Assembly: GCA_020852835.1 (NCBI GenBank)
Contig: JADZAC010000053.1
Coordinates: forward strand, 1 to 64,000
Source: Flavobacteriales bacterium
Lineage (GTDB): Bacteria; Bacteroidota; Bacteroidia; Flavobacteriales_F; PHOS-HE28
DNA length: 64,000 nt
Reading direction: 5' to 3'
The notes beneath the pieces are model-generated. The model saw only the letters and a list, made by a program, of their open reading frames with translations, had not been told where the DNA came from and ran no database searches. Below are positions 9,994 to 40,078 of this stretch, piece after piece. Each line of letters begins with the position of its first letter. Position 1 is the first letter of the stretch. The position numbers and the translations under genes are program-made.

Positions 9994-11250
9994 TCACGCA
10001 GTGGCCCGTGATGTCCTGTTCAGCGTGAGCACCGTGATCTCCGGCGGCATGCCCACCCTGCCCGGGAAGCCGATGAAGCCGAAGCCGCGGTTCACATGGA
10101 GCTGCAAGCCCTGCTTCTCATACAGTCCGGCCCACTCCTCATACACCCATTGCGCCGGGCTGTATGTATGGCCGTTGATGGTGATGCCGAACTGCGCGCC
10201 GTGCGTATGGCCCGCCAGCATCAGGTCAATCCCGGTGGCGCGCACCTCTGCGTCCCAGTGCGTGGGGTCGTGGCTCATCAGCAGCCGGAACTGGGCGGGA
10301 TCCGTGCCGGCCGCGGCCTTGGCCAGGCTGCCGTACTGCTGGAAGCGCGTGCCCCAGTTCTGTACGCCGATCAAGGTGAAGCGTTCACCTTCCTTCTCAA
10401 TGGGCAAGTGCTCGTCCAGCAACAGGCGGAAGCCCATGGCGCGGTGGTGGGCCTTGAGCCGCTCCAGGTTTTCGTGCTTCGCAGCGGCACTGGGCCAGTT
10501 GGAGTAATCGCCGTAGTCGTGGTTGCCGAGGATGGAAAACTTGCCCAAGGGCGCCTCCAACGAGGCTACCGTCTCGATCCAAGGCTCGGCCTCGTAGGCG
10601 AAGTTGTTCACCAGGTCCCCGGTGAAGAGGATCAGGTCCGGGCGCTGTGCGTTGATCAGCTCCATGCCGTGCCTTACCATGTCCGTGCTGGTGCTGAAGC
10701 TGCCCAAGTGCATGTCGCTGATCTGCACGATGCGCAACCCGTCGAACGCCTTGGGCAACTTGGGCGAGCGCACCTGCACCTGGGCCACATGGAAGTTGCG
10801 CCAGCCGCGCGTAAGTCCGTACAGCACGCCGGTGAACGGTATAGCCGCCAAAGCCAAGCCCATCTGCGAAAGGAAACGCAAACGCCCCGGATCGGGCTCA
10901 TGGGCGGCGCCCGGTGCCCACTTGCGCCAGACCCAGCGGAACAATTCCAGCAGGTCCTCCAGGCCGTGGAACAGGATGATGACCACCTTGGGCAGGAGGA
11001 AAAGCACGAACAGCCCGATCACCGTGAACAGGAAGGCGTGGTTGTTCGCCGAACGCAGCTCCTGCATGCGCAACATGCCGAAGGCGATCACGGCCAACAT
11101 GCCCACGCTCACCACCCAGTAGGCCATGCGCAACCCGCGCTGGAAACCCGCGGACCGCAGGCCGATGGCGGTGTGTATGCCGCGCCAGGCATACCAGTCG
11201 ATCAGGAACAACACAAGCAAGGCCAAGGCAATGCGGAACGGGACGGACAT
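9994..11250 (-). CDS. Membrane-anchored metallophosphoesterase
   Basis: A 418-residue protein with four to five N-terminal membrane segments (residues 4-30, 43-60, 73-95 and 128-147) and a calcineurin-like phosphoesterase domain from about residue 170. Metal-binding motifs are all present: D179-M-H181 (SDMHLGSF), G211-D212 (FTGDLVNN), G242-N-H-D245 (LGNHDY), H327 (MSHDPTH) and G347-HTH350 (AGHTHGAQ). Relatives include YkuE/YaeI-type enzymes, some acting on lipid phosphates; the substrate here is unknown. The start codon lies 5 bases after a CACCTTTG box whose spacer is a 12-base C tract. Two downstream catalytic features and full length argue that it is functional. Confidence 0.9.
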   Translation of the reverse strand: MSVPFRIALALLVLFLIDWYAWRGIHTAIGLRSAGFQRGLRMAYWVVSVGMLAVIAFGMLRMQELRSANNHAFLFTVIGLFVLFLLPKVVIILFHGLEDLLELFRWVWRKWAPGAAHEPDPGRLRFLSQMGLALAAIPFTGVLYGLTRGWRNFHVAQVQVRSPKLPKAFDGLRIVQISDMHLGSFSTSTDMVRHGMELINAQRPDLILFTGDLVNNFAYEAEPWIETVASLEAPLGKFSILGNHDYGDYSNWPSAAAKHENLERLKAHHRAMGFRLLLDEHLPIEKEGERFTLIGVQNWGTRFQQYGSLAKAAAGTDPAQFRLLMSHDPTHWDAEVRATGIDLMLAGHTHGAQFGITINGHTYSPAQWVYEEWAGLYEKQGLQLHVNRGFGFIGFPGRVGMPPEITVLTLNRTSRATA

Positions 11251-11255
11251 GGGGG

Positions 11256-11285
11256 CAAAGGTGGGGGGGGGGGGTATTGGGCCAA
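11256..11285 (-). promoter_or_regulatory. Promoter of the metallophosphoesterase with poly-C spacer
   Basis: On the minus strand TTGG (11285-11282) is followed by an 18-base spacer and CACCTTTG (11263-11256), then 5 bases to the ATG. TTGG with 18 bases to the -7 box is exactly the arrangement seen for the rpsL promoter. Eleven of the 18 spacer bases, plus the first base of the -7 box, are C. Confidence 0.55.
11263..11274. repeat. Homopolymer tract of 12 G (12 C on the minus strand)
   Basis: This is the longest single-base run I found in the window. It lies in the divergent region between the metallophosphoesterase and the T9SS propeller gene, inside the -33/-7 spacer of the former. Tracts of this length change by slippage in many bacteria. 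Confidence 0.9.
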
Positions 11286-11339
11286 GAAGCAGTGCTTAGG
11301 CACAGACTTGGATAACTTGCACCGGAAAACTTCAATCAA

Positions 11340-40048: not shown

Positions 40049-40078
40049 TTGGTTGAAAGGTTGGAAAAGCTACATTTG
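40049..40078 (+). promoter_or_regulatory. Promoter of the str-S10-spc-alpha cluster
   Basis: TTGG (40049-40052), 18 bases, then TACATTTG (40071-40078), an exact -7 box. It is 63 bases before rpsL. The 170 bases between the Fic promoter candidate and this point hold no other feature I can name. Confidence 0.65.

Follow-up and report, generated by a model that had tools for sequence, protein, structure and literature searches.

A run of twelve C residues lies in the spacer of a credible promoter in the 64,000-nucleotide stretch of Flavobacteriales DNA analysed here (the window), where it precedes a gene for a membrane metallophosphoesterase. In our best explanation, to which we give about an even chance, the run is a slippage-prone spacer of a real promoter, and changes in its length would have little or only a graded effect. 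It would act as a mild rheostat at most, not as an on/off switch, and would not act on the divergent gene. The features concerned are as follows (window positions):

9994..11250, minus strand: membrane metallophosphoesterase, 418 aa, with a PF00149 domain at residues 172-351
11250..11251, minus strand: inferred transcription start, on the first base of the ATG or on the base preceding it, placed on the sequence with the F. johnsoniae 4-5 nt rule (PMC6847099)
11256..11263, minus strand: -7 box CACCTTTG of the metallophosphoesterase promoter, assigned by its position on a genome-wide peak and by ortholog conservation
11263..11274, minus strand: C12 homopolymer (G12 on the plus strand), equalled at one other locus, with no longer C/G run in the genome
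11282..11285, minus strand: putative -33 element TTGG, 18 bases 5' of the box, assigned from sequence
11313..11320, plus strand: candidate -7 box TAACTTGC of the divergent gene, similar to the F. psychrophilum motif SM5, TAnnTTGY (PMC9723704)
11340..12779, plus strand: divergent gene, whose 479-aa product is a secreted beta-propeller protein with delta-60/SBBP-like repeats and a T9SS type A tail that scored below threshold

The geometry given in a preliminary description of this region was exact on checking. The 12-C run (minus strand, 11274-11263) supplies 11 spacer bases plus the first base of the -7 box, exactly 18 bases separate TTGG (11285-11282) from CACCTTTG (11263-11256), and the distance from the end of the tract to the GTG (11340) of the divergent T9SS-type gene is 65 bases, in line with the stated value of about 65. 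The tract is the longest homopolymer of the window. At the window's G+C content of 62%, C/G runs drop about fivefold per extra base, and the next-longest run has a length of 7. Nine C/G runs of at least 10, two of them of length 12, are present in the whole assembly, which comprises 3.44 Mb in 96 contigs and is 99% complete. When 2.2 Mb of the genome were analysed, the probability of extension of a C/G run was about 0.2 at lengths 4-6 and rose to 0.36 to 0.64 at lengths 8-11, and long C/G runs thus form a separate, over-represented class. With an extension probability of about 0.2, approximately 0.04 C/G runs of at least 12 are expected in these 2.2 Mb versus two present; a single A/T run of at least 10 was found there. 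As in promoters of the opc type, a long homopolymer is placed between promoter elements at a length beyond chance. Loss of mismatch repair was considered as the origin of the long runs and rejected, as MutS and MutL both scored above the cut-off.

The -7 box contains the A and the TTTG of the consensus TAnnTTTG, with C replacing the first T. Only 5 bases separate its last G from the metallophosphoesterase ATG. Upstream of the start codons of 1051 candidate first genes of the same genome, the pattern xAnnTT(T/C)G was matched 47, 26, 16 and 23 times at gaps of 4, 5, 6 and 7 bases, respectively, and only 2 to 4 times at gaps of 0-3. Ahead of operon-internal genes the peak at gaps 4-7 was much weaker. 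CACCTTTG stands at gaps of 4-5 before start codons in seven of its 18 occurrences ahead of candidate first genes. Orthologs of the metallophosphoesterase are present in most genomes of the genus, consistent with a conserved, housekeeping-type enzyme rather than a surface antigen, and 19 of 28 such orthologs have kept a similar -7 box at a gap of 4-7. A preferred box position (here gap 5) combined with conservation is what characterizes boxes of the Bacteroidota primary sigma factor, and on both counts the earlier designation of CACCTTTG as the -7 box of the metallophosphoesterase promoter is credible.

Given the peak 4-7 bases before starts and the retention of the box among orthologs, transcription should begin at or beside the ATG, from which we infer that the metallophosphoesterase transcript is leaderless or nearly so. 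The genome-wide peak further suggests that starts at or beside the start codon are common in this genome, and its strength implies many leaderless or near-leaderless transcripts in the genus. In F. johnsoniae, leaderless-type starts are a minority, with 87% of leaders exceeding 10 nt (PMC6847099), and 5.5% of transcripts are leaderless in F. psychrophilum (PMC9723704).

The present tract length had been regarded as optimal, with reference to the same spacing in the rpsL promoter. The latter does have a spacing of 18 (TTGG at 40049-40052, N18, TACATTTG at 40071-40078), but an optimum at this value is not supported by the wider comparison. At 301 box sites of the same genome, TTG occurred 13, 4, 9, 7, 7, 9 and 6 times at spacers of 15 to 21, respectively, versus about 5 times per position in the flanks. 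This is a mild over-representation across spacers of about 15-21 without a peak at 18, and TTGG alone was not enriched among these sites. Any TTG at spacers of 15-21 was found in six of the 28 orthologs and was absent in 22. Only the nearest relative (82% protein identity) has TTG at the exact spacing of 18; it reads TTGCCGTTGACTCCCCCCGCCCCACCTTCA, with a C-rich but interrupted spacer before the box. In none of the other orthologs (28 from the genus) was a C run longer than 7 found at the promoter. The -33 element is also weak in F. johnsoniae promoters (PMC6847099). With TTG spacing so broad and this element weak in F. johnsoniae, the prediction that one or two C more or less would move the -33 element off register is not supported. 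The spacing of 18 shared by this species and its nearest relative is the strongest point in favour of a role of spacing, at which it hints on the basis of one relative.

Poly-C is not associated with -7 boxes generally: 11 matches were obtained in 39 genus genomes versus 8 for the reversed pattern. Runs of C8-C10 directly 5' of a -7 box were seen before three other ORFs, namely L262 (G060), L259 (G021) and L261 (G033). The genes behind these tracts encode a transketolase N-terminal-like protein (judged by eye), a lipoprotein-like protein and a small secreted protein, respectively.

According to our best explanation, the tract would be the spacer of a Bacteroidota primary-sigma promoter that probably drives synthesis of a (nearly) leaderless metallophosphoesterase mRNA. 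A C-rich spacer may have lost its interruptions to give the unbroken C12 of this species, and the resulting pure run would be prone to replication slippage. Recognition by the holoenzyme presumably depends above all on the -7 box and allows for various spacings; if so, one or two C gained or lost should alter transcription little or gradually, and the tract would be mainly a mutable by-product. This is supported by the retention of the box in 19 of the 28 orthologs whereas spacer sequence and TTG vary. The interrupted C-rich spacer of the nearest relative backs the potential for slippage but not a tuned optimum. Two observations count against this explanation: (i) the TTG at exactly 18 bases in both this species and its nearest relative; (ii) the C8-C10 runs that abut -7 boxes at three other loci of the genus.

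A transcriptional switch selected for phase variation, like that of Neisseria opc, in which C12 gives the optimal spacing of 18 and other lengths lower metallophosphoesterase expression, appears somewhat unlikely. The architecture is indeed like that of opc, in which the promoter poly-C shifted from 11C to 12C or 14C (PMC6389960). The spacing also matches that of rpsL and of the nearest relative, and the genus seems to employ coding poly-C as contingency loci. A switch of this kind is opposed by the lack of a spacing optimum at 18 in the same genome, by the orthologs, all of which are without the tract, and by the nature of the product, a broadly conserved enzyme.

The coding runs are found in genes for secreted proteins. 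In the same genome, C9-C12 runs in or just behind a signal peptide put the leader in a different frame from the next long ORF at C27:1553 (L207:1553), C43:22414 (L241:2414), C75:508 (L243:508) and C39:129857 (L269:9857), which makes these four loci candidate translational contingency loci. The run is in frame at C19:8160, where it follows a lipoprotein signal, and at C32:218, where it comes immediately behind the start codon. At C65:30198 (L221:10198), the gene for a PKD protein of 1.7 kaa, which bears a T9SS type B tail, has a C11 run about 30 bases 5' of its first ATG. The single-contig genome G010 contains seven runs of at least 10. Four of these lie 43-90 bases from a start codon that opens a hydrophobic leader, and none of the four is in frame in the assembly; here as elsewhere, whether a run is in or out of frame is read from the homopolymer lengths of the assemblies and is not a measured state. 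Two of these four loci (L335, L337, L336 and L331), L335 and L337, look related and have the tract at the same place, and the product of L331 carries SprB repeats. Among homologs of the C43 protein (L318-L330), the near-start repeats differ by species and comprise C9 to C16, poly-G and a TTCC tetranucleotide array (L330), while the G006 homolog is intact and has no run. A C tract directly behind the start codon (MAAPPPLNLFKF..) was seen in L310 (C32:218 of the same genome), L311 (G028 C42) and L312 (G031 C30) with lengths of 10, 14 and 11, respectively; as assembled, it is in frame in L310 and out of frame with a nearby ATG in the other two.

When leaders were defined strictly, 8 of the 34 long runs qualified versus 100 of 2931 (3.4%) runs of 5-6 (Fisher p = 2e-5, with relatedness and homopolymer errors ignored). 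In G019 alone, the enrichment was not significant (p = 0.07). A looser signal-peptide criterion had a background of 12.9%, and the stricter one was used for the result. The pattern AQ-x-polyC gave six matches only. Products encoded 3' of the tracts have T9SS type B tails, sub-threshold type A tails, SprB repeats, PKD domains and DUF7948 domains. As judged from sequence, the coding poly-C runs of the genus look like contingency loci, or on-off switches, on T9SS-type cargo. Since runs of 9-16 C elsewhere in the genus resemble contingency loci, length variation of C12 is plausible as well. A wider reading is that of a genus-wide system of poly-C phase variation with mostly translational switches, located in or immediately after the signal peptides of T9SS-type cargo, and a few transcriptional ones, C12 included, that work via promoter-spacer length; as a whole, this is unlikely.

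An influence of the tract on expression of the divergent T9SS-type gene had also been proposed; no such effect was found. An in-frame link is excluded, as a stop lies between tract and GTG at every tract length from 8 to 16. Translational contingency loci have the tract within the frame near the start, whereas C12 lies 5' of the enzyme ATG and at no length shares a frame with the divergent gene. We assign a low probability to the alternative that the tract acts on the propeller gene from a position about 50 to 60 bases 5' of its inferred start, for example by altering the distance to an upstream binding site. The divergent metallophosphoesterase/propeller pair is conserved across the genus (it was found in nearly all loci examined), and the propeller product belongs to a protein class whose genes bear poly-C tracts elsewhere. 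Yet the candidate TAACTTGC box is 38 bases away from the tract, the intervening stop blocks an in-frame link, and no C/G run of at least 8 was present at the orthologous loci, where the divergent neighbour is mostly the same. TAACTTGC fits the SM5 motif TAnnTTGY, and the propeller gene may possess an alternative-sigma promoter.

That errors in the sequencing or assembly of this metagenome-assembled genome contributed to the tract length is quite improbable. Homopolymers are error-prone, but the tract is located mid-contig (11 kb into 103.9 kb), its flanks agree with those of the orthologs, and long C runs occur in many assemblies of the genus, including one single-contig genome. A translational switch, in which the enzyme frame would be linked to TTG or GTG starts further 5' at certain tract lengths, is very improbable. 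At 8, 10, 11, 13, 14 or 16 C such a TTG or GTG is in frame with no intervening stop, but at 12 C none is, the MSV.. start and the box are conserved in relatives devoid of the tract, and the ATG is there whatever the tract length.

Among known systems, opc encodes a surface invasin and is transcribed by an RNA polymerase of the sigma-70 type, and the Bordetella fim promoter contains poly-C. The opc promoter of Neisseria meningitidis carries a poly-C run of about 12 (Sarkari et al. 1994, as presented in PMC6389960), and the tract described here is similarly a run of 12 bases in a promoter region. Unlike opc, it is placed in a Bacteroidota-type promoter with a weak -33 element and loose spacing, it precedes a gene for a membrane phosphoesterase, and variation of its length is putative. 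Poly-G is found in the promoter of Neisseria porA (PMC3639595). With porA and fim the tract has in common that it is a promoter homopolymer whose length may tune transcription; those genes, however, encode pathogen surface antigens under immune selection, and their variants have been measured. In secreted-protein genes of the genus, 5'-terminal poly-C runs break or keep the frame in the manner of the coding contingency loci of Campylobacter and Neisseria, from which the non-coding C12 of the window differs. No report of homopolymer phase variation in Flavobacteriales was found in the open-licence literature searched, and a 2025 review describes phase variation in Bacteroides as inversion without mentioning Flavobacteri- (PMC11868660). 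If C12 varies, it would represent phase variation by promoter-spacer length under the unusual Bacteroidota sigma factor, and would offer a direct test of how strictly the Bacteroidota polymerase measures spacing. The frame-breaking poly-C runs of the genus would carry contingency loci from host-adapted pathogens to environmental, uncultured, sludge-type Flavobacteriales, where switching of secreted proteins might, as a speculation, serve in defence against phage or grazers. A genus-wide poly-C system, if real, would mean simple-sequence contingency in free-living Flavobacteriales, in a phylum whose well-known phase variation is DNA inversion.
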